25,689 nt of DNA from a virus. The notes beneath the pieces were generated by a model, which had not been told where the DNA came from, made no database searches, and worked only from the letters and a program-made list of their open reading frames with translations. The position numbers and the translations under genes are program-made. The stretch lies in the IMG/VR virus record IMGVR_UViG_3300025674_000343, positions 1 to 25,689 of that record; one strand, written 5' to 3'. Shown here one piece after another: positions 7,778-23,721 of the stretch (its first letter is position 1; every line of letters begins with the position of its first letter).

Positions 7778-7923
7778 AGGCCGATCAGTCTCGGATGAAC
7801 TTAATTGCCTTGGCTGATCGGTTACACAAGACTATCGAAGAAGTCGAGCAGATTTCGGTCAATGAGTTTCAGGAATGGCTCGCGTACTTCAAGATAATGA
7901 GCGAGTCTAAAGATGGCGACTGA
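7430..7923 (+). CDS. Tail assembly chaperone, -1 frameshift form (gpGT-like)
   Basis: A -1 shift at 7768-7774 moves reading from the G frame into an open frame that runs to TGA 7921-7923, adding 49 residues from CTA 7774 for about 164 aa in total. The added part contains NLIALADRLHKTIEEVEQ and ISVNEFQEWLAYFKIMSES. The EF-x-EWLAYF motif is typical of the T half of siphovirus GT chaperones, which binds tube subunits. The T frame has no good ribosome binding site of its own before ATG 7795. The end overlaps the tape measure start (7913) by 11 nt, as in lambda-like tails. The reading frame and motif are seen directly; the efficiency of shifting is unknown. Confidence 0.85.
7768..7774 (+). promoter_or_regulatory. 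-1 ribosomal frameshift slippery heptamer
   Basis: The zero-frame codons are GAA AAA AAC, giving A AAA AAC, a canonical X XXY YYZ heptamer. The zero-frame stop TAA follows immediately at 7775-7777. Slipping back by one lets both tRNAs re-pair with AAA and continue at CTA 7774. It stands exactly where lambda-like tail chaperone genes shift. Confidence 0.9.
7779..7823 (+). promoter_or_regulatory. Frameshift-stimulating stem-loop
   Basis: CCGATCAG at 7781-7788 pairs perfectly with CTGATCGG at 7814-7821, and G-U pairs (7779-7780 with 7822-7823) can extend it to 10 bp. The loop is 25 nt. The stem begins 4-6 nt after the slippery heptamer, the usual distance for a structure that makes the ribosome pause. 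I see no clear pseudoknot partner. Confidence 0.75.
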
Positions 7924-9775
7924 AACCGTAAGCATTGTAATTAAGGCGTTCGACCAAACGCAAAAAGCCTTGCGCGGTATACAAGCCGCCTTCCGCAAAC
8001 TCTCCAAAGTTTTCTTCAACTTTAAAACAGCTCTGATTAGTGCAGTGGGTGGGGCTGGTCTTGGCTTGCTTATCACTAAGAGCCTTCAAGCCACAGATGC
8101 CCTAGCAAAAACATCAGCCCGAATTGGCACGACCACCGATCAACTTAGCAAGTTGCAGTTTGCAGGATCGCTCGCAGGGGTCGAAACCAATACGCTAAAC
8201 ATGGCAATGCAACGCTTTGTGCGACGTACCGCAGAGGCGACGCAAGGCACAGGCGAGGCTGTACGTGCTTTCCAACAGCTAAAGATTGACGCAAAAGAAA
8301 TACAGGAATTGCCTCTCGCAGAGCGCATGAAGGTTTTGGCAGGCGCGTTTGGAGAGCTAAAAACCGAAGAAGAAAAACTGGCTGTTGCGTTTAAGCTGTT
8401 TGACTCTGAAGGTACTGCTGTTCTCAATATGCTTCGTCAGTCTGGCGATGAAATGGAGGCGGTATTCCAAGAAGCGCAAAAGCTCGGCATTGTAATGTCG
8501 CAAGATGCGGCAAAAGGTGTCGAAGATGCTAACGACGCATTCACTCGATTGCTCGCTATTGGTAAAGGTCTTACAAACCAATTTACAGCGGCGCTCGCTC
8601 CAGCACTGACTACTTTAGTTACTACCTTTAAAGATTACATTCTTCAACAATCCGAGGCGTATGGCGGCATCGAAAACTTTGCACGCTTCATTGCAGGCGA
8701 GTTTATCGAAAATATCCGATCTGCCTTAGTTGGATTACAAGCACTGACTAACGCAGGAATCGACATAGTTAATACGTTCAATTCTGCACGTCGTAGCTTG
8801 TCTGCGGCTTTCGCTATTGGCAAGGCCGATCCTAATGATGTGGCGGCGCTAGAAGCGGAGCTTGCCGAAATAGATCAGATGCTGAAAGGCGGCTTCTTTA
8901 ACGATTTAGGCAAAATTCGCTTGTTTAGTGATAAAGGCGTCATTGACATCCTTTCAGACGAAGAGATATTGGCAGAACGTGAGCGCATCGTTAATAGGCT
9001 TGAACAGCTCGGGGTTGAGATCAACGAAGCTATACCGTATGTAAATTTTGCCGATCGACTGGCAGTGCCTTTAGCAGAGGCGGCAGAGGCGGCAAAAGCC
9101 CCCATAGAAAGCCTAAAAAACACCTTAGAAGAAGTAAAGGTGGTCGCGCAAGCGCCTTGGTATATGCCTTTAATTGACGGGTTTAAAAAGTTCGGTAATG
9201 CCATTGATAATGTTATCGAAAAAATGCCCAACATAGATCAGGCACTAGAGCAGTTTACACAAGGTGCGATGAATAATTTCACGCAGGCTTTTGTTGATGG
9301 CGTGACGGGCGCTAAGAATTTTGGTGAAGCTATTAGAAACTTAGCGAAAAGCGTCGTGGATTCGCTAATTAAAATGCTCGTTCAGTATTACATTACTAAG
9401 CCGTTGTTTGACGCAATTAGTGGCGGTATCTCAAGTGCGTTTGGTGGCGGTTCAACAACGTCAACGGGTGGCGGTTCTGCTCTACCGACTTTTGCAAGCG
9501 GTGGTGTAGCAACTGGCGGCAGACCTGCAATAGTAGGCGAGCGCGGCCCTGAATTATTCATACCAAGCACAACAGGGCGAGTAGTTCCTAATGACCAGCT
9601 TGGCGGCGGCGGTGTAGTAGTCAATCAGACAATCAACGTCACCACAGGCGTACAGCAAACTGTACGTGCTGAGATTGCTAACCTACTACCTCAGATTAGT
9701 AACGCGGCCAAGTCAGCGGTAGCAGATGCTAGAATGCGAGGCGGTGGTTTCAGTAAGGCAATGGTGGGTGCATAA
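7913..9775 (+). CDS. Tail tape measure protein
   Basis: A 620-aa protein that sets tail length and is ejected with DNA. The N-terminal half is helical, with a hydrophobic stretch at about residues 38-60 (FKTALISAVGGAGLGLLITK) that could insert in the host membrane. A second helical region runs from 130 to 480 with many Ala, Glu and Gln residues. The C-terminus has a Gly/Ser/Thr-rich hinge and the family motif VGERGPELFIPSTTGRVVPN around 545-565. With the usual 0.15 nm per residue, the tail would be about 93 nm. No lysozyme or peptidase domain is embedded, unlike in some tape measures. It overlaps the chaperone long form and is TAATG-coupled to the next gene. Confidence 0.92.
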   Translation: MATETVSIVIKAFDQTQKALRGIQAAFRKLSKVFFNFKTALISAVGGAGLGLLITKSLQATDALAKTSARIGTTTDQLSKLQFAGSLAGVETNTLNMAMQRFVRRTAEATQGTGEAVRAFQQLKIDAKEIQELPLAERMKVLAGAFGELKTEEEKLAVAFKLFDSEGTAVLNMLRQSGDEMEAVFQEAQKLGIVMSQDAAKGVEDANDAFTRLLAIGKGLTNQFTAALAPALTTLVTTFKDYILQQSEAYGGIENFARFIAGEFIENIRSALVGLQALTNAGIDIVNTFNSARRSLSAAFAIGKADPNDVAALEAELAEIDQMLKGGFFNDLGKIRLFSDKGVIDILSDEEILAERERIVNRLEQLGVEINEAIPYVNFADRLAVPLAEAAEAAKAPIESLKNTLEEVKVVAQAPWYMPLIDGFKKFGNAIDNVIEKMPNIDQALEQFTQGAMNNFTQAFVDGVTGAKNFGEAIRNLAKSVVDSLIKMLVQYYITKPLFDAISGGISSAFGGGSTTSTGGGSALPTFASGGVATGGRPAIVGERGPELFIPSTTGRVVPNDQLGGGGVVVNQTINVTTGVQQTVRAEIANLLPQISNAAKSAVADARMRGGGFSKAMVGA

Positions 9776-10311
9776 TGGCGGCATTTCCAAATGTAGGCAT
9801 ACAATCAATGACCATGCGGTTGCGCTCTGCAACGGCTATCAGTCAGTCGCCTTTTACCTATGACCAGCAGGTTTACCAGCATCAGGGTGTGAGGTGGGAG
9901 GCAGAGGTCACATTGCCGCCAATGAAGCGCGCAGACGCGAAGCAGTTAGAGGCTTTCTTTGCTTCTCTAAGGGGCCAAGCTAACACCTTTACCCTTGGCA
10001 ACCCTTTGCACAATACGACCGCCACAGGGACAGGCACGGGCGCTATCAACGCAACTACGCTGACAGGCTCGTTTACTGGCGCTGTTGCTGGGGACTACTT
10101 CGAGATAAATAGTGCGCTTTACATCGTCACCGAAGTAAATAGTTCATCGTCTATTGATATCATGCCGCCGCTCAGGGTCGCGGCCTCCAGTGCCGCACTA
10201 GACTTTACATTGCCTAAAGGGACATGGCGGCTTGCCTCTAATGAAATCGGATGGAGCATCAATCAGGCTAGTCTGTACGGTTTCACTTTTGCTTGCGTTG
10301 AGGCTATATGA
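9775..10311 (+). CDS. Distal/minor tail protein
   Basis: A 178-aa strand-rich protein after the tape measure gene. It begins AFPNVGIQSMTMRLRSATA and has SPFTYDQQVYQHQG followed by RWEAEVTLPPMKRADAKQLE, a pattern I recognise from a phage tail family located between tape measure and hub. These proteins usually form the ring at the tail tip (Dit or lambda gpM-like role) that links tube and hub. A Thr/Gly-rich insert at about residues 80-95 lies in the middle. The assignment is based on pattern and place. ATGA coupling to the next gene. Confidence 0.7.
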   Translation: MAAFPNVGIQSMTMRLRSATAISQSPFTYDQQVYQHQGVRWEAEVTLPPMKRADAKQLEAFFASLRGQANTFTLGNPLHNTTATGTGTGAINATTLTGSFTGAVAGDYFEINSALYIVTEVNSSSSIDIMPPLRVAASSAALDFTLPKGTWRLASNEIGWSINQASLYGFTFACVEAI

Positions 10312-10925
10312 GCAGGTCATTGACATCGGGGATGCAAACGGCAGTTACCGCCGACTTGGTCCGCCCAATAGTCCTCGTCCAGTGTGCATTCGATTCAGGC
10401 AACCTGAACCTCTGGAACGGCATCGGTACGCTGACTGTTAGCAGTGTCGACTACGTTGGCGCTGGCACATTGCTGTCTATCGGCGAGATTGCAGAGTCAT
10501 CAGAGCTACAAGCCAACGGACTTACTGTCACCCTGTCAGGCATCACTGACCCGCTGTTAGCAAAGGCGCGTGACGAGGATTACCAAGGCCGTGAGCTAAA
10601 AGTATTGCTTGGCGCTATGGACGCAAGCAACGGTGTCATCACTAGCCCTGTCGTCGTCTTTAGCGGCTTTATGGACACGATGGTCATCAATGACTCGTCT
10701 GACACTGCGACGATACAGGTGGCCGTGGAAAACCGCCTCATTGAGTTTGAGCGCACCCGCGTAAGACGTTACACAGCCGAGGACCAAAAGATTGATTACC
10801 CAAATGACAAAGGTCTTGAGTTTGTTGCTGAGATGGCTGAAAAAGAAATTGTTTGGGGCAGAAGTGGCGTTATGACTTACTCAAGTCAAGATGATGAGCG
10901 CGACCCCAGCAATATGGGCAGATAA
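10308..10925 (+). CDS. Tail tip/hub-associated protein (DUF2163-like)
   Basis: A 205-aa protein starting at an ATGA overlap. The N-terminal part reads LVRPIVLVQCAFDSGNLNLW, then DYVGAGTLLSIGEIAESSEL and ANGLTVTLSGI, typical of the DUF2163-type baseplate family. A later segment, TATIQVAVENRLIEFERTRVRRYT, and the end region VAEMAEKEIVWGR are also family-typical. Such proteins sit at the tail tip between the distal ring and the J-like hub (roles comparable to lambda gpL). I do not see the Fe-S cysteine set of lambda gpL; only one Cys is present. Confidence is high for a tail-tip role and moderate for the family name. Confidence 0.7.
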   Translation: MSRSLTSGMQTAVTADLVRPIVLVQCAFDSGNLNLWNGIGTLTVSSVDYVGAGTLLSIGEIAESSELQANGLTVTLSGITDPLLAKARDEDYQGRELKVLLGAMDASNGVITSPVVVFSGFMDTMVINDSSDTATIQVAVENRLIEFERTRVRRYTAEDQKIDYPNDKGLEFVAEMAEKEIVWGRSGVMTYSSQDDERDPSNMGR

Positions 10926-10937
10926 GAGGGCGACAAA

Positions 10938-11387
10938 ATGGAATTTGCATTAGAAAACTTAGCGAAGGTACGGCGCGAGATTGAGCCACTGCTTGAAGAG
11001 CATTGGAAAGAAATAGCTCTGAACAAAGAAATCATCAAGCTAAACCCCGATTGGGAAGGCTATGCACGACTGGATGGCATCAATGCGTTACGAATCTACA
11101 CAGCGCGCAAGGATGACAAGCTCGTGGGCTACTTTGTAGTCATCGTCAACAAGTCACTGCACTATCGCGACCATCTGTTTGCCAACAACGACATTATTTT
11201 CCTAAGCAAGTCTGCACGTAAAGGCTTGGCAGGTATGAAGCTGATTAAGTATGCCATTGACTCACTAGCGGCAGAGGGCATCACAAAGCTACACGTAAAC
11301 ACAAAAGCGCACCAACCCTTTGACGCAATCCTTGAGCGATTGAACTTTGAAGAGATTGAGCGCGTTTACTCTTTAGTATTGAGGTAA
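10938..11387 (+). CDS. GNAT-like acetyltransferase-fold protein in the tail module
   Basis: A 149-aa protein with Shine-Dalgarno GAGGG. The fold pattern is GNAT: N-terminal helices, strands with ALRIYTARKDDKLVGYFVVIV (strands 2-4), an acceptor-loop region with FLSKSARKGLAGMKLIKYA (the usual acetyl-CoA pyrophosphate-binding turn and following helix), then a strand HVNTKA and C-terminal helix FDAILERLNF with a last strand YSLVLR. GNAT enzymes move an acetyl group from acetyl-CoA to an amine. Between the tail hub genes, lambda-like phages normally encode a peptidase and gpI-type chaperone, so this protein may be an assembly factor, a modifier of tail proteins, or an anti-host enzyme. The target is unknown. 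A strict Q/RxxGxG motif is degenerate (RKGLAG), so catalytic activity is not certain. Confidence 0.75.
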   Translation: MEFALENLAKVRREIEPLLEEHWKEIALNKEIIKLNPDWEGYARLDGINALRIYTARKDDKLVGYFVVIVNKSLHYRDHLFANNDIIFLSKSARKGLAGMKLIKYAIDSLAAEGITKLHVNTKAHQPFDAILERLNFEEIERVYSLVLR

Positions 11388-11391
11388 GTAA

Positions 11392-14300
11392 ATGGCCGTA
11401 AGTGCTATAGCAGGTTTAGTCAGCGCAGTAGCAGGCGGTATTGCCACTGGATTTGCGCTCGGCACATTTTTAACTAGCTTTGCAATCGGTGCTGGCTTGT
11501 CAATGGTGTCTCGTGCGCTTGCACCAAAGCCCAACATCGGCGAGCAAATGCGGGGTTTAACTCAAACGACGCGCAACCCTGCTGACACCCGCAAAATTAT
11601 TTACGGAAAAATGCGAGTTGGCGGCAATGTCGTTTTCATCGCGCACTCTGGTAGTGATAACAAATATCTGCACTTGGCTGTCGTGTTTGCTACGCATCGG
11701 ATTACTGCATACGATGAGGTATGGTTTAACGACAACAGGATTTGGACTGCGGCAGGTGGGTTTCAAGGTGACTGGGGTACATACGTCACAATGGACACTA
11801 CTAAGCTCGGCACTGCAGGACAAACTGCTTCGACCGTACTTACGCCTATTACCGAGTGGACAGCAAACCATAAGCTAAGTGGCATCGCCTATATAGCCTT
11901 TAAGCTAGAGTGGAATCAGGATAAGTTTCCGCAAGGCGTTCCAAACATTACAGCAGTCATTAGGGGTAAGCCTGTATTTGACCCGCGCACTGATGTTACT
12001 GGCTACAGCACAAACCCTGCGCTTTGCTTGCGCGACTACATGCTTGACCAAGACTATGGGCTAGGTGAAAGCAACGTAAACATTGACTCAACTGCGCTAG
12101 AAGCGGCGGCTGACCTTTGCGATGAGCAGGTATCGCTAAACGCTGGCGGCACACAAGACCGCTACCAGTGCAACGGCGTCATAGACACGGCAAACCAAAT
12201 CAAAGCCAACATCGAGCAACTGCTCGCGTCTATGGGCGGCAAGCTGACCTACTCAGGCGGCAAGTATTTTGTAGACGGCGCAGAGTACAAAACGCCAACG
12301 CACACGTTTACAGAGGCAGACGTTATTAGCGAGATACAGACGCAGACTAAGCAGTCGCGCAGAGGCATCTACAATGGCGTCAAAGGCATCTTTGTATCGG
12401 AAGAGAAAAACTACAAGGTACTAGACTACCCTGCGCAGATTAGCTCTACATACGCCACAGAGGACGGCGACCCTCTTTACCTAGATATGCCTTTGCCTTT
12501 TGTGACCAATAACCTACAGGCACAACGGCTGGCAAAAATTGCACTGCTGAAGTCACGTCAGCAAGTCGTCATAACAATGACAGTAAACCTAAAGGGCTTG
12601 CAGATTAAGGTCGGCGACACAATACAGGTCACTAACGACCGTCTTGGCTATAGCTCTAAAGTATTCGAGGTTATCGACTACTCATTAGCAATTGGCGATG
12701 GACAGGCATTGGCGGTCAATCTTGTTTGTATCGAGACGGCCTCTGCTATTTACGACTGGACGACCTCAGACGAGGCGGACTTTTTGTCGGGCGGTGAACT
12801 GGACTTATACGACGGTAGAACGGTCGATAACGTCACTAGCCTCACACTTACTGAGATTGGTTTACGCGGTCCAGACGGTGGCGTTAGCTCGTCTGTGCAG
12901 TTGGCATGGACAGCGCCTGACGACGCGTTTATCGAGTTCTACAAGATACGCTACAACAAGAACGGCACCACTGATTACTTTGAGGTACAGAGCCGCGAGA
13001 CTAACGTGCTTATCTCTGGACTCGACATTACCTCTAATTACGATTTTCGTGTACAGGCAGAAAACCTGCTGGGCGTAACTAGCACAGGCACAACATTAAG
13101 CAATCAAGCACTAAATGGGGACACGACTGCACCAAGCGCACCAACAGGGGGCGCGGCTACAGGCGGGATACAGACAATAACCGCAGAGTGGACTAATCCT
13201 AGTGACATAGACTTTAAGCACGTCGAGGTTTTCGTCAATACGAGCGACTCGATACCTGCGTCACCTACTGCTGTAGTTGATGGTGAGGAGTATGTGGTCA
13301 CTGGCTTGTCAGGCGCTGTGACGCGTTATTTCTGGCTTAAGGCCGTCGATTTCTCTGGCAATAAGTCAGCGGCGACTGCCAGCTTCAACGGCACGTCAGT
13401 AGTGGCAGGCTCTACTGATATTGCAGACGATGCGATAGGCGCTGATGAAATCAACGATGATGAGGTTTTGCATGAGGTGCCGTCTGAGGGGCTTACTTAC
13501 TATTGGCCCTGTAACTCAATCGCAGATGTTAGCGGTAGCGGCAATGAAGAATTACAAGAGGTAGTGGCTGGAAAGACGGGCATACACAGTGGCTCGACAG
13601 CGCCGACACTTAGCACTGACTCGCCGACAGGTAAGTCAATAGTCAATGGCACTGACAATAGCGGATGGACGCTTCTCAGCGACACTGATGCAGATGCGCT
13701 TGAAGGTGCTAATGGTTTTGCGTGGTCGCTTTGGTTTAAGTCTGATACGACCTCTGGCGACGGTGCGGCGCGTATTATTGGGCGTGATGCTTCAGACGGA
13801 TGGGCTGTCGTCATCGATCAAAGCGCAAGCGGCAATCAAGCGGTCACGCTGTACGGCGAGCCAAGCACTGAAGCAATGGGTTCGCTCGCACAGGGCGAAT
13901 GGCATCACTTCTGCCTGAGCGAGGACGGTAACGGCACGATCTCAGGATACGTCAACGGCGAGCTTGTCAGCACAGAGTCATATACACCTGTTGATTCGTC
14001 GCGGCCAGTTGTTATTGCGTGTAACACTGAGACAGCAATTAACACAGCCTCAAGTGTGTTCGAGGGCAAGCTAACAGAAATACGTGCTTACAACAGAGCG
14101 TTGACAGCACAGGAAGTGCGCGGTCTGTATAAAGTCCCAGCGGCGAGTGCGCCAGCGGAAGTCGACGGCGACATGATTATCGACGGCAGTTTAGTCGCGG
14201 CCAAAATAACTGTCGCTAACCTTGCAGAAATAAATGACAACGTTGGAACGATTACGGGCGGCTCAGTCGGTGGTGTAACCATTACATCTACCAAGCTGTA

Positions 14301-17300
14301 TCAAGGTACTGGCACGTTCAACAACAGCAACACAGGCTTTTATCTTGATAACACTGGTCAGTTTAGCCTTAAGGACAAGCTGTCTTTTAACGGAACCACC
14401 CTAAGCGTAAGCGGTGCAATCACAGCAACCAGCCTCACTCTAAGCGGTACGTCAATCGCTGAGTCTCAGCTTGCGTCAGGTGTGCAGTCTAGCCTTGGCC
14501 TTGCTGATAGCGCACTACAGGATGGCGACACAAGCGTTAACCTCGGGCTAGACGATGGCTCTATAGCTGGGATTAACATCACATCAACTAAGCTATACGC
14601 GGGTACGGGTGATTGGGGTAATTCAAATACGGGCTTTTATCTCGACAACACGGGCAAATTTAGCCTCAAAGACAAGATCTTTTTCAACCCTTCAAATAGC
14701 TTGCTCACCGTTGACGGCAATATCACAGCGGACATCATTACAGCTAAAGAAAACCTCGTCGTCCTTGGTGATCTTGAGGCTAGTAGTATGGCGGCGGGAT
14801 CTATCACGCGAGCGATGTTCTCACAGGACGCACTCGACGAGATATATGGCGCATTGGCAACGTCTGTTGGCGGCTCTAATGGTGACTACAAAGAGGCGTC
14901 GGGGAACTTCACGACATCAGGCGGCACGGTAACGGTAGGCACATCATCAGATAAGTTTGACCACGGCACTGCTGACGTAGTGGTTGAGTTCCTAGCTAAT
15001 CACTACTTCTATGCGACTACGAACTACACGACGGCACAGGCACAAGCAACGCTTAACTTTGAGGTGTCGGCTGACGGTACGTTTACGGATCTGACCTCAG
15101 CGACAAAGACTCAGACACTTCAGTTCGAAGAATATGACCTGTCGAGCTATTACGGCACCACGACTCTCGTTTACTCCTTTAACGGTGAGCACAGCAAGAC
15201 GTTTACGACGGGATCGGGTAACGACATACCCGACAGCACAGAGCTACAGTTCCGTGTTCGCGTTACAGGCGTCGGTACGGCATTCACTGGGCAGACAGTA
15301 CCCTTCACCGTAGAGGCTAACGAGGGCGTCACAGGCGTCGTCTCAACAGGCGGTAACGCTGACACCCTAGATAACCTCGACTCGACCAAGTTCTTACGCT
15401 CTGACGTTAACGACACGTTTGACGCTGACCTAACGATTACGGGCGACCTGTCACTGCAAGGCGCTCTGAATATCACGGGCGATATAAACAGCTATAACGT
15501 CACCGACCTAGACGTGACCGACAAGACGATAACCGTCAACTCAGGAAATACGCAGTCACTATCTGACGGCGCTGGCCTTATCGTAGATCGCGGCACTGCA
15601 AGCGATGCCAGCCTTACTTGGGATGAGACAAACGACAAGTTTGATTTTAGCCACCCAGTACAGATACAGAAATCGACTATCGGCGGCGAGTTGTTGCATC
15701 TGCGTAACTCATACAACGGCGGATATCGTGACGATCTAATCATCGAAAACACTAACGATCGTGACGCTGGCCTAACCATTAAAACTGCTGGCGGCCAGTA
15801 TGAAATGTGGGTTGATTCGAACGGCGATGACAGCCTGATTTTCTCAGCGGGTGATAACACTACCAATATCACCATGGAGCTGTATCAGAACAAAAACGTC
15901 GATATAGGCGGCGACTTAGACGTTACTGGTGAGATTGACACGTCGAAGGGCCTGACGTTTAACCCTAACGGCTATGATATTAACGGCGATAGTGACGGCA
16001 ACCGCACTCTTTTTACGTTTACTCGAAGCGGCGCGGCAAGCTGGCAGATATGGCACAACGCTAACCAAGACCTAAACTTTATACCGAACAACACCTCGTA
16101 CAAACTTCAATGGAACGGCAACGATCTTTTGTATAGTGGCGCAAATATTTCGGTCGGCACCATCAGCTCGGGCGCTATCACTAGCAGTACAGGCACAAGC
16201 TCGTTTTATGAACTCACGTTAACTGGTGACTCTGACGACCTAACCTTCACCACAACGGGCGGCGACTGGTCAATACTCAACGCGCAACAGAGTAATGGCT
16301 TAGTAATTTACGACGGCACTAGCGGCGTTACTGTTTTATATAACAATGCAGAGGTCGGACAATTTGACAATAGCGGCTTTGATGTAGTTTCTGGCGCGTT
16401 ACAGGTAGGTGGTACTACAAGAATTTCATCGGCTGGCGCTGGCACATTTACAGACGTAACGCTGAGCGATATATCCCCTGAAATAATTCTATCGGACACT
16501 AACAGTGGCGGAGGCGGTGGCGCTTTTGGAAGAATCCTTTTTCAAAATACTGCTGGTAACGCAATCGGCATTGGCTATACACCAGACTCAATTGACGACT
16601 CTGACTTAATAATCAGCACGAATGCGGCGGGTACTTATGGCGGGTATATGAGTCTCGACGCGGCGGCAATCGCTGACACTCAAGCAGACATCATCCTTGA
16701 GCCAAAAACCAATGTCCGTATCGCTACAGGTGGCCTGAAGATCGGAACCACAACTTTCGTGGATTCCAGCCGCAACATTACCGCAGGCACTATAAGCAGT
16801 GGGGCTATCACTAGCACTGGCCGTATAACATCAGATTCTTCCGACATCGACGGCTTTGTGCTGGAGAACTCGGCTCATCGTAGCGGCGTGTTAAATATAC
16901 CGCAACGTGATGCCGCCGACTCATATACGGGCATTATGCTGAAGCGTGATGATGGCGATCGTTGGGCGGTCATGGCCAGTGACACCCTTTTTGGTATTTA
17001 TGACGACATCAATGATGATTGGGCATTACAAGCGTCAGAACTTGGCGGAGTGCGGCTCTACTATGCTGGGGCAGGTAAGCTGGAAACGCTTGATGACGGG
17101 GTGCAAATCACAGGTCGCGTTACTGCCGCCGCCACCAACATCGACAACGCTTACAATTTTCAGTTTACCGATAGCGACGCAGACAACTCATATTCAGGGA
17201 TGCGTATTGATTACAACGCATCCGATAATACAACTCTGACGGCTGACAGGAATCATATCGCTTTTGAAGTTGACTACGATGTGACCTCAACAGGCGGTGA

Positions 17301-20256
17301 TACGTCAAATGAGTATCGAGCTTATGGGATATCTGTAGACGTTAGAGGTAGCGGTGATACTGATATTCGTAGGGGCATTTACTCTTACAGCGAAACTCAG
17401 CATAGCGCTGGGACTGTATCCGAAAACATAGCTATTTATGGCTATGCGGTAGCAGATGAGACTGGAACAGGCAGAACGACGAACAACTATGGCGGTTATT
17501 TCCTCGCATTCGAAAATGGCACTGGAACGGGCGGCACTGCAACCCACTATGGTGTGTTTTCGAAAGCTCAAGCGACTAGCGCGGCGGATAAAAATATTGG
17601 CTCAATGTACGGCGTTTACTCTGAGGTTGAATACGACACAACGGGAGCCACTACTGCAATATCAACTATTTATGGCGTTAGCTCGATAATAGATAACGAC
17701 AGCACTGACACTACCGTAACAAATAGCTATCTGTTTCACGGGTCTTATCAGGGAACTATCAACGCAACAAACGCTTATGGTCTTTACATAAGTGGCAATG
17801 TTGAAAACTACTTTGCGGGACACGTCAGAGCAGACCAAGGCTACAAGGTTGGATCAAGCACGATAATTGACGCTAGTGCCAATATGAGCAACATAGGCAC
17901 TATAGGATCAACAGGCGATATAACCGTTACTAACGGAAGTTTCAACCTAAGCAGTGGCTACAATATTCAATGGGGCGGCTCTTACAGTTCGGGCTTTCCC
18001 ACTATCTTTGCAAATTCCTCACAAAAAGTTTTACGCTTCGCGCCTAACGGAAGTACGACTGGCACAGTTTTAGAAATAGATAGTGGTGGTCTTGACCTAA
18101 AGGTCGGCGGTTATGAAATTGACGGCACCACCGTCATCGACTCTAGTAGCAATATAACGGCTGGCACCATCTCCTCGGGCGCTATCACAACTAGCGGAAC
18201 TCTCGACTTCACGGCGAACCCAGCTTACATCCGCAACGATCAAGATGCTTCAGGCCAAATTGTTATAAGTGCCAAAAACTCGGCTTCTCAAACCCAGCAG
18301 GTTCGATGGGATGCGGCAAATAACACGGCTGGCGCATGGCGACCTGAGACGACTAATATCAGCGATTTAGGTTTGACCGATAAAATCTGGAATACGCTTT
18401 ACATCAATCTGATTAAACATGGCGCGTCTAATGATACGTTCCTAGATCAGAACCGAAACGTCACGGCTAACGACGTGCTGGTCTTAGGTGATCTCGACAT
18501 TCAAAACAGGCTGCGGCACAACGGCAACACAGACACGTACATCGAATTTACAACCGATCAGATCGATCTTAGAACGACCCTTACATCTCGACTGACTATC
18601 ACTGACGACGTGACTGTGAATACTGATCTGATCGTCGAAGCAATGTCGCCTTCTATTAGTATCAGAGACGGTAATAACGGCGGAAGCGGTAACGCAGAAG
18701 GCAAAATACTATTTAAAAACACAGGCGGCAACGCGATTGGTATAGGCTATACAGCCGATGTTCTAACTGATTCTGACCTAATAATTAGCACAGACGCGGG
18801 CGGCACTTATGGCGCATATTTGGGACTTGATGCGCTGGCGATTACTGATACTCAATCGGACATTATCTTAGAGCCGAAAACTAGCGTCCGTATTGCTAGC
18901 GGTGGGTTAAAGGTAGGAACAACAGAAGTTATCTCATCCGTAGGCCGCTTTTACAGCACTTCTAGCACAGTAACCAAACCTGCTTTCTCGTTCGATGGTG
19001 ATTCAAATACTGGTATGTACCACATGGGCGCAGACCAGATCGGCTTTACAATCGGCGGAAGTAACAAGGTTTATATTGAAGACAGCACTTATGTGTTAAA
19101 TGTTCTGGGTGCCGCTTATATTACAAGCGACCTCGATGTGGCAGGCGATCTTGCCGTAGGAGGTAACATAACCTCGGGCGGTAGTACGCTTTTAACGTCC
19201 GATGATTATGACACGCAAGTATGCCACTTAAAAACAAACGTCAGCGCGGCGGTAGATCAAGGCGTAGCAAATGAATTTACTGTCAACTTCAACCTAGAGG
19301 AGCATAACGACAGCACGACGTTCTCTCATTCCAGCGGCGTGGTTACTGTCGCAACGGCAGGCTGGTATCGCGTTTATGCCAACATGGTGTATCAGAATGG
19401 CTCAGCCTCTGCTCGTAACACAGTACGCGCTTATGTAGAGAAAAACGGCACAGAGATCACTAGCACCGCAACCTATGATTATGATCGTGGTAGCTCATAC
19501 GGCGAGTTCTCAAACAACAAGATTGAGACCATGCTGTATTTAGCCGCTAACGATACCATCGGCATCGGTAACTACGCAGAGAATGAGGACGGCGTAATTA
19601 CCATTGAGGCGGCTGAGTGTGAATTCATAGTCTCATCGGTGAGCGCTACAACAACGACCACCAACGCCGACACAGTTGATGGTCTTCACGCCTCTTCATT
19701 TATCCGTAGTGATGCGTCTGATACCGTCTCTGGTGCGATTACGTTTAACTCTGATGTTTATGTCAGCAATCGAATTTACCATGCTGGCGATACAAACACA
19801 TACCTAGATTTTTTAGACGATAGGGCTCGCATCATTAGCGGCGGCATCGAAATGATCGACTGCGTGGAGGGTGCTACAGATTACGTTGATATTGTTGATC
19901 GTGTTCGTGTCACGGCTGGTGGCGACTTAGAGTGTGAGGGAAATATTACCGCCTACACAAGCACCAGCATTTCGGACATCAACCAAAAGGAAAATATCCA
20001 ACGCATCGAATCGCCCATTGAGAAAATTAAGGAAATCTCGGGCTACACATTTGATTGGAAGCAGTCGGGCGAGCATTCAGGCGGCGTCATTGCTCAAGAG
20101 ATCGAGCAGGTTATGCCCGACATCGTGAAAGAGAAGAGTATACGAGACGGCGAAAAGATGAAGGCCGTGGATTATCAGGCAATCATCGGACTGCTTGTCG
20201 AGACAGTCAAAGACCTCAATAAACGTATTGAGGATTTAGAGAATGGCGATGACTAA
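11392..20256 (+). CDS. Giant J-like hub + tail fibre + S74 chaperone fusion, 2954 aa
   Basis: The largest gene, about a third of the window. Residues 1-46 are hydrophobic and Gly/Ala-rich. Residues 60-475 resemble the lambda J-like tail hub (RKIIYGKMRVGGNVVFI, then LCLRDYML and NLKGLQIKVGDTIQVTN). Two fibronectin-III-like domains lie at about 485-580 and 583-668, then a LamG/concanavalin-like domain at about 698-917. Fibre modules follow: 37-aa repeats at 964-1000 and 1063-1099, a strand-rich domain at 1157-1316, LDNLDSTKFLRSDVNDT at about 1323, duplicated 97-aa blocks at 1694-1790 and 2418-2514, a YG-anchored repeat region at 1974-2136, a C1q-like jelly-roll at about 2605-2750, and a terminal S74 intramolecular chaperone from 2861 with Ser2861 and Lys2866. 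It would form the trimeric central fibre that recognises the host. Start has SD GAGGTAA. Confidence 0.9.
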   Translation: MAVSAIAGLVSAVAGGIATGFALGTFLTSFAIGAGLSMVSRALAPKPNIGEQMRGLTQTTRNPADTRKIIYGKMRVGGNVVFIAHSGSDNKYLHLAVVFATHRITAYDEVWFNDNRIWTAAGGFQGDWGTYVTMDTTKLGTAGQTASTVLTPITEWTANHKLSGIAYIAFKLEWNQDKFPQGVPNITAVIRGKPVFDPRTDVTGYSTNPALCLRDYMLDQDYGLGESNVNIDSTALEAAADLCDEQVSLNAGGTQDRYQCNGVIDTANQIKANIEQLLASMGGKLTYSGGKYFVDGAEYKTPTHTFTEADVISEIQTQTKQSRRGIYNGVKGIFVSEEKNYKVLDYPAQISSTYATEDGDPLYLDMPLPFVTNNLQAQRLAKIALLKSRQQVVITMTVNLKGLQIKVGDTIQVTNDRLGYSSKVFEVIDYSLAIGDGQALAVNLVCIETASAIYDWTTSDEADFLSGGELDLYDGRTVDNVTSLTLTEIGLRGPDGGVSSSVQLAWTAPDDAFIEFYKIRYNKNGTTDYFEVQSRETNVLISGLDITSNYDFRVQAENLLGVTSTGTTLSNQALNGDTTAPSAPTGGAATGGIQTITAEWTNPSDIDFKHVEVFVNTSDSIPASPTAVVDGEEYVVTGLSGAVTRYFWLKAVDFSGNKSAATASFNGTSVVAGSTDIADDAIGADEINDDEVLHEVPSEGLTYYWPCNSIADVSGSGNEELQEVVAGKTGIHSGSTAPTLSTDSPTGKSIVNGTDNSGWTLLSDTDADALEGANGFAWSLWFKSDTTSGDGAARIIGRDASDGWAVVIDQSASGNQAVTLYGEPSTEAMGSLAQGEWHHFCLSEDGNGTISGYVNGELVSTESYTPVDSSRPVVIACNTETAINTASSVFEGKLTEIRAYNRALTAQEVRGLYKVPAASAPAEVDGDMIIDGSLVAAKITVANLAEINDNVGTITGGSVGGVTITSTKLYQGTGTFNNSNTGFYLDNTGQFSLKDKLSFNGTTLSVSGAITATSLTLSGTSIAESQLASGVQSSLGLADSALQDGDTSVNLGLDDGSIAGINITSTKLYAGTGDWGNSNTGFYLDNTGKFSLKDKIFFNPSNSLLTVDGNITADIITAKENLVVLGDLEASSMAAGSITRAMFSQDALDEIYGALATSVGGSNGDYKEASGNFTTSGGTVTVGTSSDKFDHGTADVVVEFLANHYFYATTNYTTAQAQATLNFEVSADGTFTDLTSATKTQTLQFEEYDLSSYYGTTTLVYSFNGEHSKTFTTGSGNDIPDSTELQFRVRVTGVGTAFTGQTVPFTVEANEGVTGVVSTGGNADTLDNLDSTKFLRSDVNDTFDADLTITGDLSLQGALNITGDINSYNVTDLDVTDKTITVNSGNTQSLSDGAGLIVDRGTASDASLTWDETNDKFDFSHPVQIQKSTIGGELLHLRNSYNGGYRDDLIIENTNDRDAGLTIKTAGGQYEMWVDSNGDDSLIFSAGDNTTNITMELYQNKNVDIGGDLDVTGEIDTSKGLTFNPNGYDINGDSDGNRTLFTFTRSGAASWQIWHNANQDLNFIPNNTSYKLQWNGNDLLYSGANISVGTISSGAITSSTGTSSFYELTLTGDSDDLTFTTTGGDWSILNAQQSNGLVIYDGTSGVTVLYNNAEVGQFDNSGFDVVSGALQVGGTTRISSAGAGTFTDVTLSDISPEIILSDTNSGGGGGAFGRILFQNTAGNAIGIGYTPDSIDDSDLIISTNAAGTYGGYMSLDAAAIADTQADIILEPKTNVRIATGGLKIGTTTFVDSSRNITAGTISSGAITSTGRITSDSSDIDGFVLENSAHRSGVLNIPQRDAADSYTGIMLKRDDGDRWAVMASDTLFGIYDDINDDWALQASELGGVRLYYAGAGKLETLDDGVQITGRVTAAATNIDNAYNFQFTDSDADNSYSGMRIDYNASDNTTLTADRNHIAFEVDYDVTSTGGDTSNEYRAYGISVDVRGSGDTDIRRGIYSYSETQHSAGTVSENIAIYGYAVADETGTGRTTNNYGGYFLAFENGTGTGGTATHYGVFSKAQATSAADKNIGSMYGVYSEVEYDTTGATTAISTIYGVSSIIDNDSTDTTVTNSYLFHGSYQGTINATNAYGLYISGNVENYFAGHVRADQGYKVGSSTIIDASANMSNIGTIGSTGDITVTNGSFNLSSGYNIQWGGSYSSGFPTIFANSSQKVLRFAPNGSTTGTVLEIDSGGLDLKVGGYEIDGTTVIDSSSNITAGTISSGAITTSGTLDFTANPAYIRNDQDASGQIVISAKNSASQTQQVRWDAANNTAGAWRPETTNISDLGLTDKIWNTLYINLIKHGASNDTFLDQNRNVTANDVLVLGDLDIQNRLRHNGNTDTYIEFTTDQIDLRTTLTSRLTITDDVTVNTDLIVEAMSPSISIRDGNNGGSGNAEGKILFKNTGGNAIGIGYTADVLTDSDLIISTDAGGTYGAYLGLDALAITDTQSDIILEPKTSVRIASGGLKVGTTEVISSVGRFYSTSSTVTKPAFSFDGDSNTGMYHMGADQIGFTIGGSNKVYIEDSTYVLNVLGAAYITSDLDVAGDLAVGGNITSGGSTLLTSDDYDTQVCHLKTNVSAAVDQGVANEFTVNFNLEEHNDSTTFSHSSGVVTVATAGWYRVYANMVYQNGSASARNTVRAYVEKNGTEITSTATYDYDRGSSYGEFSNNKIETMLYLAANDTIGIGNYAENEDGVITIEAAECEFIVSSVSATTTTTNADTVDGLHASSFIRSDASDTVSGAITFNSDVYVSNRIYHAGDTNTYLDFLDDRARIISGGIEMIDCVEGATDYVDIVDRVRVTAGGDLECEGNITAYTSTSISDINQKENIQRIESPIEKIKEISGYTFDWKQSGEHSGGVIAQEIEQVMPDIVKEKSIRDGEKMKAVDYQAIIGLLVETVKDLNKRIEDLENGDD
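13484..14140 (+). other. LamG-like domain within the fibre gene
   Basis: Residues about 698-917 of the giant protein begin GLTYYWPCNSIADVSGSGNE and end with LTEIRAYNRALTAQEVRGLY. The pattern (W-F-K-S-D, AARIIGR, GEWHHFCLS, GTISGYVNGELV, E-x-R-AYNRALT-x-E) is that of laminin-G or concanavalin-like sugar- or protein-binding folds. In a tail fibre it is a candidate receptor-binding or side-fibre domain, mounted between the FN3 pair and the shaft. Confidence 0.75.
14281..14689 (+). repeat. Two copies of a 37-aa fibre module
   Basis: Residues 964-1000 and 1063-1099 share ITSTKLY, GTG, NSNTGFYLDNTG and FSLKDK. I count 30 of 37 identities. The copies are 99 residues apart, so the unit is a whole fibre-shaft module. 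The module is known in phage fibres, where each copy adds a strand layer. Confidence 0.85.
16471..18933 (+). repeat. Duplicated 97-aa fibre block (two distant copies)
   Basis: Copy A is 16471-16761 (residues 1694-1790) and copy B is 18643-18933 (residues 2418-2514). They align without gaps, 66 of 97 identical by my count. Shared runs include GNAIGIGYT, DSDLIIST, and DIILEPKT. The DNA of the two copies has diverged at many codon positions, so the duplication is old or was acquired by module exchange. The 724-residue offset frames the YG repeat region. Confidence 0.88.
17311..17799 (+). repeat. YG-anchored repeat region in the fibre
   Basis: Residues about 1974-2136 contain nine spaced hydrophobic strand anchors, each centred on Y-G or a close variant: RAYGI, RRGIY, IYGYA, YGGYF, HYGVF, MYGVY, IYGVS, SYLFHG and AYGLY. 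Spacing is about 17-25 residues, with Thr/Gly/Asp-rich turns between. This looks like a repeating strand-turn shaft, such as a beta-helix or triangular beta-prism, typical of trimeric fibre knobs or shafts. Confidence 0.7.
19204..19644 (+). other. C1q/TNF-like jelly-roll domain in the fibre
   Basis: Residues about 2605-2750 show VNFNLEEHNDSTTFSHSS, GVVTVATAGWYRVYANMVYQ and AYVEKNGTEIT, followed by YLAANDTIGIGNYAEN. The 'TVATAGWYRV' and 'LAANDTIGI' elements match the usual C1q-type pattern of a strand ending in AGxYxF/V and a later 'L..GD.I.v' strand. It forms trimers in known proteins, which fits a fibre tip just before the S74 chaperone. Confidence 0.6.
19972..20253 (+). other. S74 intramolecular chaperone (auto-processing) domain
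   Basis: The last 94 residues, 2861-2954, begin SDINQKENI and contain IKEISGYTFDWKQSGEHSGG and VIAQEIEQVMPDIV, then a terminal helix KDLNKRIEDLENGD. This is the Peptidase_S74 family found at the C-terminus of endosialidases and T5 and other fibres. The dyad Ser-x4-Lys (S2861 and K2866) is intact, so cleavage just before S2861 is expected after trimer folding. Confidence 0.92.
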
Positions 20257-22065: not shown

Positions 22066-22251
22066 ATGGAACTTGCAGAAAAGGCTCTTGAAAAATTGGC
22101 ACATCATGAAAAGCTGTGCGAAGAACGTCTGCGAAGATTGGACGAAAAGATTGACGCGGCTCATAAAGACATCGCCACAAACCGCACTGCTGTGTTCGCT
22201 TTGTATCCTTTTATTTTTGGCGCTGTTGTTTTAGCGGATTACCTTAAATAA
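22066..22251 (+). CDS. Small membrane protein, 61 aa (holin-like candidate)
   Basis: ATG 22066, with Shine-Dalgarno GTGAGG 3 nt before it, gives 61 aa beginning MELAEKALEKLAHHEKLCEE, followed by charged helix RRLDEKIDAAHKDIA and the C-terminal hydrophobic segment AVFALYPFIFGAVVLADYLK. The MELAEKALEKL start and coiled-coil-plus-one-TM plan match small conserved phage proteins. A start at GTG 22030 (12 more residues) is possible but lacks a ribosome binding site and would pre-date the promoter-like site. The coiled coil with a single C-terminal TM is like class III or accessory holins or antiholins. TAATG couples it to the next gene. Confidence 0.7.
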   Translation: MELAEKALEKLAHHEKLCEERLRRLDEKIDAAHKDIATNRTAVFALYPFIFGAVVLADYLK

Positions 22252-22973
22252 TGTACCAGTTTCACACTGACCACCCTACCCCAAACGTTTATCTTGACGT
22301 TGCTCGTGGCTCAATTAGCAACTCAAAGATAGTTCACAAGTTTGGCGCTAATTTCGATATTGACCAAATCACTACACCAGAAACCGTATGGAGTGCGGGC
22401 GGCTTGTATCCGTGGTCATCCCTAGCAACGGCACAGACCATCTACTGTATTAGTACGAGTGCCAGCGATACGGCTGTACTTACAATCGAGGGCTTGGACG
22501 CTAACTACAACGAGCAGATAGAAACAGTCACGCTGACAGGCACAACAGCAGTAGCGACTAGCAACACGTTTATCCGCGTATTCCGCATGACCTATGAAGA
22601 CGGTGCAAATGTAGGAACGATTACAGCACGTGTCACAAGCGGCACAGGAACCGTTGTGGCGCAGATAGACATCGGCTATGCACAAACACTCATGTCTGTG
22701 TACACTGTCCCTGCGGGTTATACAGCGTACATGGTGACGACTGACTGCACGATTGATTCGCGCAAAGACTGTCAGATACTTATGTACCATCGACTGTTTG
22801 GCAAGCCGTTTAGGATTGCTCACGTTGCAGAGGCTACTGGTCATTATCGGTATGACTTCTATGCGCCACTCCGCGTCCCTGAAAAAACAGACATCGACAT
22901 TCGCATTGATAACGTCAGTGGCAACGACTCACGCGTAACTGCTAACTTTGACCTCGTGCTTATTAAGGACTGA
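22251..22973 (+). CDS. Putative virion structural protein
   Basis: A 240-aa strand-rich protein. Residues 25-60 contain NSKIVHKFGANFDIDQ and ETVWSAGGLYPWSS, and the later part has LTIEGLDANYNEQIETVTLTG, AVATSNTFIRVFRM and QTLMSVYTVPAGYTAYMV. I recognise these features from a family widespread in marine phages and annotated as virion structural or hypothetical. It has a repeated beta-sandwich look and no enzyme motif. Probably a capsid or tail decoration protein. It is unusual that it sits inside the lysis block rather than with other virion genes. The start is TAATG-coupled. Confidence 0.7.
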   Translation: MYQFHTDHPTPNVYLDVARGSISNSKIVHKFGANFDIDQITTPETVWSAGGLYPWSSLATAQTIYCISTSASDTAVLTIEGLDANYNEQIETVTLTGTTAVATSNTFIRVFRMTYEDGANVGTITARVTSGTGTVVAQIDIGYAQTLMSVYTVPAGYTAYMVTTDCTIDSRKDCQILMYHRLFGKPFRIAHVAEATGHYRYDFYAPLRVPEKTDIDIRIDNVSGNDSRVTANFDLVLIKD

Positions 22974-22975
22974 TT

Positions 22976-23374
22976 ATGTTGCAGGCACTAGTTGGCCCAG
23001 TTGCTGGACTGCTGGACAAGTTCATCGAGGACAAAGACCAGAAGGCAAAGCTCGCGCACGAAATTAGCACGATGGCTGAGAAGCACGCGCAGGAGCTTGC
23101 GAAAGCACAGCTAGAGGTCAACAAGGTAGAGGCGGCACACAAGTCGCTATTCGTCTCGGGCTGGCGTCCTGCTGTAGGCTGGTGCTGTGTTTTGGGAATG
23201 ACTGGCAACTTCATGGTCATACCCTTTACTAACTTTGTGCTGGCACTGCTGTCGATAGATGTGACCATCCCACTGATTGACCTAGAGACAATGATGCCTG
23301 TCCTTATGGGTATGCTAGGCTTAGGCGCTATGCGAAGCTACGAAAAGACCAAAGGCGTATCTAGAGAGAAATGA
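22976..23374 (+). CDS. Holin, 3TM superfamily
   Basis: A 132-aa protein with an N-terminal amphipathic helix (residues 1-55; LDKFIEDKDQKAKLAHEIST then a charged coil) and the holin family motif SGWRPAVGWCCVLGMTGNF at 61-79. Transmembrane segments lie at about 66-92 and 104-120 (LMGMLGLGAMRSYEKTKG). The WRPAVGW...LGLGAMRSYEK pattern is typical of the Holin_3TMs family. It would oligomerise in the inner membrane and release the endolysin encoded directly downstream. The stop overlaps the endolysin start by 4 nt (ATGA). Confidence 0.9.
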   Translation: MLQALVGPVAGLLDKFIEDKDQKAKLAHEISTMAEKHAQELAKAQLEVNKVEAAHKSLFVSGWRPAVGWCCVLGMTGNFMVIPFTNFVLALLSIDVTIPLIDLETMMPVLMGMLGLGAMRSYEKTKGVSREK

Positions 23375-23721
23375 GCTACAAGTATTTTCACGAGTCAGAG
23401 TTTCGCTGTCGAGAGACTGGCGAGAATCGAATGAAGCCAGAATTCATAACTATGCTTGACGAGCTACGCGAGCGGTGCGGGTTTAGCTTCGTTATCACGT
23501 CGGGCTATCGCTCTAAACAGCACACGGCAGAGCGAAGCAAAGAAAAGGGCGGCACTCATACTTTAGGTATTGCAGTAGACATTGCAGTATCTAATGGCGA
23601 GCAGAGAATGAAAATCGTGCGGGAAGCCCTAGAGATGGGCTTTGGCGGAATAGGCGTAGCGCGTACATTCGTACACGTCGATATGCGGGCAACTACGCCT
23701 GTAATGTGGACTTACGGCTGA
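23371..23721 (+). CDS. Endolysin, M15-type peptidase
   Basis: A 116-aa single-domain peptidase of the M15_3 family (D-alanyl-D-alanine carboxypeptidase/L-Ala-D-Glu endopeptidase fold). The sequence ITSGYRSKQHTAERSKEKGG is followed by GTHTLGIAVDI, which holds H63 and D70, and TFVHVDMR, which holds H102 and D104. These match the zinc ligands and catalytic acid of the family. It cuts peptide crosslinks or stems in peptidoglycan. There is no signal peptide, so it depends on the holin for exit. The length is normal for the family. No spanin pair is recognisable nearby. Its 3' end overlaps the convergent leftward gene by 10 nt. Confidence 0.93.
   Translation: MSYKYFHESEFRCRETGENRMKPEFITMLDELRERCGFSFVITSGYRSKQHTAERSKEKGGTHTLGIAVDIAVSNGEQRMKIVREALEMGFGGIGVARTFVHVDMRATTPVMWTYG

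Follow-up and report, generated by a model that had tools for sequence, protein, structure and literature searches.

The position between the hub-like and J-like tail genes is an exchangeable slot whose content has been swapped more than once in marine phages, and GNATs of a single PHROG entered this slot in three J lineages. We analysed a stretch of 25,689 nucleotides of viral DNA (the window; positions 1 to 25,689 of IMG/VR record IMGVR_UViG_3300025674_000343), in which the slot protein is a PHROG_1249 GNAT-fold protein. A sequence-only reading of the window had already pointed to a GNAT-like protein here, and the history of slot swaps is what is new relative to it. The features on which the analysis rests are as follows.

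7913..9775, plus strand: tape measure protein (Tape_meas_lam_C in Pfam; several phrog tape-measure families)
9775..10311, plus strand: distal tail protein (phrog_1302 'distal tail protein', E 7e-24; weak DUF2460)
10308..10925, plus strand: lambda-L/hub-like tail protein, 205 aa (phrog_2048, E 1.5e-50)
10938..11387, plus strand: GNAT-fold slot protein P0001, 149 aa (ORF, PHROG_1249, AlphaFold2, solved GNAT chains)
11157..11192, plus strand: LHYxDHxxAxxD stretch, residues 74-85 of P0001, beta3-beta4 loop and beta4 (alignment, AlphaFold2 secondary structure)
11217..11234, plus strand: altered CoA (pyrophosphate) loop, residues 94-99 of P0001, R-K-G-L-A-G (family alignment)
11392..20256, plus strand: J-like tail-tip protein fused to giant fibre, 2954 aa (PHROG and Pfam matches)

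Gene order in the window was tape measure, distal tail protein, hub/L-like protein, GNAT and J-like/fibre protein. The slot ORF starts with an ATG 12 bases past the end of the upstream tail gene and ends 4 bases ahead of the J-like gene. Relatives of the hub-like protein were annotated as tail protein or minor tail protein L. The N-terminal part of the J-like ORF matched phrog_5616 (E 3e-102), phrog_31 'central tail fiber J' (E 1e-81) and Phage-tail_3 (Pfam), further Pfam matches in this ORF were to fn3, and its C-terminus is a Peptidase_S74 intramolecular chaperone (E 4e-12). The J-like part, a giant repetitive fibre and the Peptidase_S74 end are all contained in one ORF. No peptidoglycan hydrolase domain was detected in the tape measure protein, and no NlpC/P60, gpK or gpI protein was found among the scanned window ORFs. 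Further downstream, a GTA-type 3TM holin (22976-23374; PF11351, E 8e-20) is followed by an M15 peptidase (23371-23721) that is likely the endolysin. The protein at 22251-22973 had no Pfam match and its sole strong PHROG match was to phrog_8198 (unknown function, E 2.5e-54).

The sequence-only reading had expected both gpK and gpI between L and J. This is the arrangement of lambda, where the order is L-K-I-J, but not of the nearest cultured modules, those of Roseobacter phages CRP-6, CRP-406 and CRP-811 (J about 35-41% identical to that of the window), in which a single gene, DUF6950, fills the hub-J slot. The missing gpI is therefore not peculiar to GNAT phages. DUF6950 was also found in the slot of Acinetobacter phage Loki.

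Against Pfam, P0001 gave a weak result (Acetyltransf_1 at E 6.6e-4, its 20.4 bits falling just short of the 20.7 cut-off), and 23 of 58 family members reached Acetyltransf_1 at E 0.01, the best at 5e-8. The match to PHROG_1249, 'acetyltransferase', was clear (E 1.2e-12, residues 50-146). AlphaFold2, run on a 58-sequence alignment, returned a full GNAT fold over the whole chain with a mean pLDDT of 89.1, and the nearest solved structures to this model were GNAT acetyltransferases, led by 7n1l_K (Z 16.7, 2.5 A, 141 residues aligned). The nearest predicted viral structures, where named, were phage GNATs, among them proteins of VpV262 and Roseobacter phage CRP-4. The GNAT-like protein noted from the sequence alone is thus confirmed. 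P0001 had no NlpC/P60 or papain-like domain, with Pfam returning GNAT families only and PHROGs no peptidase, and it had no Pfam or PHROG match to gpI families and no match to PF02794 (HlyC acyltransferase).

The IMG/VR search found 104 relatives of the window GNAT, 80 of which were kept. Median dN/dS was 0.044 over 85 usable pairs (400 pairs sampled from 53 window-family sequences, with pairs outside the dS limits dropped). Together the 104 relatives and the low dN/dS indicate that the slot ORF is not a chance reading frame. No close DNA relative of the window was found among named phages, and a scan of genome contigs for a prophage or host of the family gave 65 pattern matches and no relatives.

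We assessed the CoA loop in a register set by HMMER alignments to 3fyn and 7n1l. GNAT motif A reads [Q/R]-x-x-G-x-[G/A]. The loop of the window family departs from it and reads R-x-G-x-x-G across 68 distinct siphophage sequences, with R94, G96 and a Gly or Ala at 99 in 68/68 and Gly at canonical position 97 in 0/68. A Tyr in alpha-4 is usual in GNATs, and at the corresponding residue, 132, it was present in none of the 68. When sipho- and podophage members were combined (19 sequences), the Arg was kept in 19/19, Gly at the third place in 16/19 and Gly at the fourth place in 2/19. The degenerate loop seen in the window is therefore real and a property of the family. Disappearance of the CoA site from every homologue, which the sequence-only reading had named as evidence against itself, was borne out only by half: the canonical Gly is absent from all 68 siphophage sequences and from 17 of the 19 in the mixed set, while the altered loop is conserved. 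Retention of the Arg and the shifted Gly under strong purifying selection argues that the alteration is held rather than decaying, and conservation of the altered loop itself suggests that the ligand site may have been changed rather than abandoned. The missing Gly and alpha-4 Tyr suggest that catalysis may be lost.

Invariance extended beyond the loop. In the LHYxDHxxAxxD stretch, L74, H75, Y76, H79, A82 and D85 were invariant in the 58-sequence alignment and again in 68/68, and the wider set of invariant residues comprised H22, N36, P37, W39, Y42, L74-H75-Y76, H79, D85, K123, H125 and F128. These map to alpha1, the alpha1-alpha2 loop, alpha2, the beta3-beta4 loop, beta4 and the beta5-alpha4 region, pocket positions in P0001 being taken from secondary structure and alignment. 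These elements line the acceptor and cofactor in GNATs, and the LHYxDHxxAxxD stretch probably forms the acceptor side of the cleft.

Slot content was surveyed in 325 records (324 loci and the window). A J match was obtained in 310, 18 loci were incomplete, and a slot ORF, defined as the longest ORF with its end anywhere from 80 bases inside J to 300 bases ahead of the J start, was assigned in 292. The survey was seeded with chosen queries (three J queries, one Pthi1 GNAT query and the window GNAT query), and the Pthi1 loci and IMG/VR window-GNAT loci were retrieved by their GNAT, so that slot content there is by selection and the following are not population frequencies: window-type GNAT in 129 loci, DUF6950 in 75, HlyC in 59, none in 17, Pthi1-type GNAT in 11 and L269-type GNAT in 1. 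As 34 of the 292 loci repeat an identical stretch, merging left 258 distinct loci (98 window-type GNAT, 74 DUF6950, 58 HlyC, 17 none, 10 Pthi1-type and 1 L269-type). HMMs run on six-frame fragments found two modelled families (window-type GNAT, DUF6950, HlyC and Pthi1-type GNAT) together in none of the 292 loci, and none of the four in 18, which were the 17 empty loci plus L269. In a set of 139 J-bearing loci the GNAT directly adjoined J in 126; of the other 13, 6 were reference phages whose slot carries a different protein, 6 were incomplete and 1 had a wider gap.

The HlyC proteins belong to the family of RTX-activating lysine acyltransferases and were found in the slot of Pelagibacter phage HTVC026P (PF02794, E 7e-13) and its relatives (L096:4567-4977 and 58 further loci). 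Kinship of the window GNAT with these proteins was considered and set aside, as the profiles do not align. The pelagiphage set comprised 77 loci with a readable slot, 59 with HlyC, 1 with a GNAT and 17 empty, the last being related loci without any slot gene. In the empty loci the hub was picked as the slot ORF, with its stop -3 to +24 bases from J, and the four modelled families were absent from the rest of the stretches searched. That the hub abuts J in 17 of 77 loci suggests that the slot product is dispensable there.

The slot protein of Paracoccus phage Pthi1 is an unannotated 133-aa protein (L098:3573-3974) with like genes in IMG/VR contigs L155-L164. It is a GNAT by structure (AlphaFold2 pLDDT 80.8; Z 15.6 to 9mh3_A) and matched phrog_1249 at E 1.8e-10 with no match in Pfam. 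Three separate GNAT types, the window, Pthi1 and L269 types, thus occupy the slot, all matching phrog_1249. A relative of the Pthi1 type lies directly before the tail needle gene in Pseudanabaena phage Pam1 (L338:4998-5417), whose annotation includes needle and injectosome genes.

Slot states were mapped on a J tree of 104 representatives, obtained as 90% clusters of 269 usable rows. The tree required 10 slot-state changes, against a least possible number of 5 and a mean of 51.9 after shuffling. L188, which carries a window-family GNAT, was nested within a DUF6950 clade (fork 100*), and its distal tail protein, hub and J are laid out as in the DUF6950 locus L184. In both L188 and L189 a GNAT is found where the modules closest in J carry DUF6950, which bears out one part of the earlier interpretation, that a GNAT stands in place of a tail peptidase-type gene; none of the results pointed to fibre or hub as a substrate of the GNAT. 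Of 6 loci with an L188-type GNAT, 5 have it in the slot, and in the remaining one (L337) it follows a large tail-type protein in surroundings like those of podophages. The L269 GNAT locus fell inside the HlyC clade of the J tree, and of 8 loci followed up for the L269-type GNAT, 7 have it immediately ahead of J, while the gene in L331 is unrelated. Among representatives with a window-type GNAT, 38 of 39 stayed with one J lineage. That the hub-J gap is a hotspot taking any small cargo gene, the GNAT having no link to the tail, would fit the very different folds and empty slots at one place, but given this fidelity and the 0/292 loci with two modelled families we consider it very improbable.

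We give an about even chance to the explanation that the GNAT serves the tail tip or ejection, its conserved cleft binding or transferring an acyl-type ligand by way of the altered acyl-CoA loop. The GNAT would stand in for the gpK, RcGTA-g14 or DUF6950-type protein in a single exchangeable slot and would be made together with the tail genes. One possibility is that it travels inside the tail lumen, close to the end of the tape measure, and leaves the particle upon infection, which is the proposal made for g14; another is that its targets are the tape-measure, hub or J proteins while the tip is being assembled. Adjacency to J in 126/139 loci, the exclusivity of slot families, the 10 slot changes, the three GNAT types in the slot, podoviral relatives beside tail/ejection genes, the position and deletion phenotype of RcGTA g14, the invariant loop and cleft residues and the dN/dS of 0.044 all argue for a role in the tail tip or ejection. 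A binding surface common to all slot proteins is hard to square with the unrelated folds found there. The tail-tip explanation is itself weakened by the empty pelagiphage slots, the loss of the canonical CoA Gly and alpha-4 Tyr, the position of the BPP-1-type GNAT after terminase and an HlyC-like gene of HTVC103P near replication genes. The latter, a distant HlyC-like relative (L340:4974-5423), lies beside single-strand-binding and primase genes, away from the tail genes.

Reuse of the GNAT fold without enzymatic activity, as an assembly chaperone or tail-tip plug comparable to the scaffold that T7 gp13 has been proposed to be, is in our view rather unlikely. It accords with the non-canonical CoA loop and lack of the alpha-4 Tyr in 68/68, and the alternative slot protein DUF6950 also looks inactive. 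DUF6950 aligned weakly with lambda gpK around the catalytic Cys (E 0.009, 35 columns), and in an alignment of 33 of the 60 distinct DUF6950 slot proteins, which are marine, the Cys was kept in 33/33, with A, G or S in 33/33 at the place where the peptidase motif expects a His. The marine DUF6950 proteins may therefore be a pseudo-peptidase family of siphophage tail tips, judging by their sequences; DUF6950 gave no match to solved structures. T7 gp13, a 'probable scaffold' in Pfam, sits at a comparable place in T7, and RcGTA tails need g14 (PMC7296036). A purely structural protein is harder to reconcile with invariance concentrated at cleft and loop positions, with empty slots and with the lack of profile kinship to T7 gp13. 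A direct relationship to gp13 in sequence was tried and rejected (hhalign, run against 7 gp13 proteins, gave a probability of 0.5% over 24 columns), leaving a positional analogy only; gp13 belongs to phrog_308 and not to phrog_1249.

We also consider it unlikely that the GNAT is a host-directed acyltransferase, a moron-like gene product with host proteins or metabolites as targets of acetylation or other acylation, active late in infection or after injection into the next host, whose gene merely happens to lie in the late tail operon. The immediate adjoining of J, replacement rather than addition over 292 loci, entry of GNATs of one PHROG in three J lineages and the presence of podoviral relatives in virion modules as well all speak against it. 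The conserved cleft residues would nonetheless suit an enzyme, the slot can be empty, the HlyC-like relative of HTVC103P lies outside the tail region, and host regulation has been suggested for podophage GNATs (PMC6918029).

An extension of the tail-tip explanation, which we regard as quite doubtful, is that phages repeatedly traded a peptidase-type tail-tip protein for acyl-transferring proteins and that self-acylation of the virion helps genome entry. The three GNAT types and the HlyC type would then acylate or ligand-tune tail-tip or ejection proteins, for example the tape-measure end or the membrane-inserting N-terminus of J, and the podophage GNATs beside ejection genes would do likewise.

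The small protein between hub and J or megatron is a poorly understood part of long-tailed phages, and no GNAT in this slot is described in the excerpts of CC-licensed PMC papers that formed the literature searched. The natural swaps between DUF6950, GNATs, HlyC-type proteins and nothing, with related flanks, supply natural pairs in which the function of the slot could be studied, and they connect the tips of siphophage tails with GNAT genes that have been noted, though not explained, next to podophage ejection proteins.

In named phages the window family was represented by 27 records, all below 60% identity, and gene surroundings were viewed in 10 of these with annotation and in 1 without. 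In PfAn1 the GNAT lies ahead of internal-virion proteins, and in Vibrio phages 1.264.O, 1.209.O and 1.293.O and in GP100 and KZY1 it lies ahead of large late proteins without a name. The genes on its other side in these six are tail, connector or unnamed late genes, and the setting in ct2os315 was similar. In BPP-1 and ctEw122 it comes right after terminase. Limnohabitans phage DC33 was annotated solely with hypothetical proteins; its record (L089, PQ492659.1) is placed in Inoviridae yet is 39 kb long with a podophage-like phrog_1249-type GNAT, and the taxonomy line looks wrong. A 19-row tree of sipho- and podophage GNATs gave split support of 45/87, too little to orient transfer between the two groups. 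A search of IMG/VR for the Zobellviridae-type GNAT gave 6 pattern matches and no relatives.

Compared with known systems, the slot protein of the window shares its gene position, from L/hub to J/megatron, with RcGTA g14, the peptidase of roseophage R4C and lambda gpK; these are peptidases, whereas the window protein has a GNAT fold. In PMC7296036, the RcGTA g14 peptidase is 150 aa long, against 149 aa for the window GNAT, and is tentatively fitted to density that separates the iris of the megatron from the ends of the tape measure, a placement in the map that is uncertain, while its deletion gives empty heads without tails. In R4C an unmodelled peptidase is noted near the distal tape-measure ends (PMC10276861). 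DUF6950 (PF22262, phrog_2134) occupies the same slot but is a different sequence family. The HlyC-type pelagiphage acyltransferase (PF02794) likewise has the slot in common with the window GNAT and is separate in sequence family, though HlyC proteins presumably have a GNAT-like fold. The closest likeness in sequence family, fold and, for most members, R-x-G loop is to the PHROG_1249 GNATs of podophages (Zobellviridae, PfAn1 and BPP-1 Bbp24), which in most podophages viewed adjoin tail/ejection genes. These lie before internal virion proteins or after terminase, whereas the window GNAT lies in the hub-J slot of a siphophage-type module. T7 gp13 (PF11090) resembles the podophage GNATs in size and in its place before ejection proteins, and in the published statement that comes nearest among the literature searched, SIO1 pc40, a GNAT, could correspond to it (PMC6775973). 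Podophage relatives can stand between tail and ejection genes, while the window protein stands in a siphophage-type module without such ejection genes.
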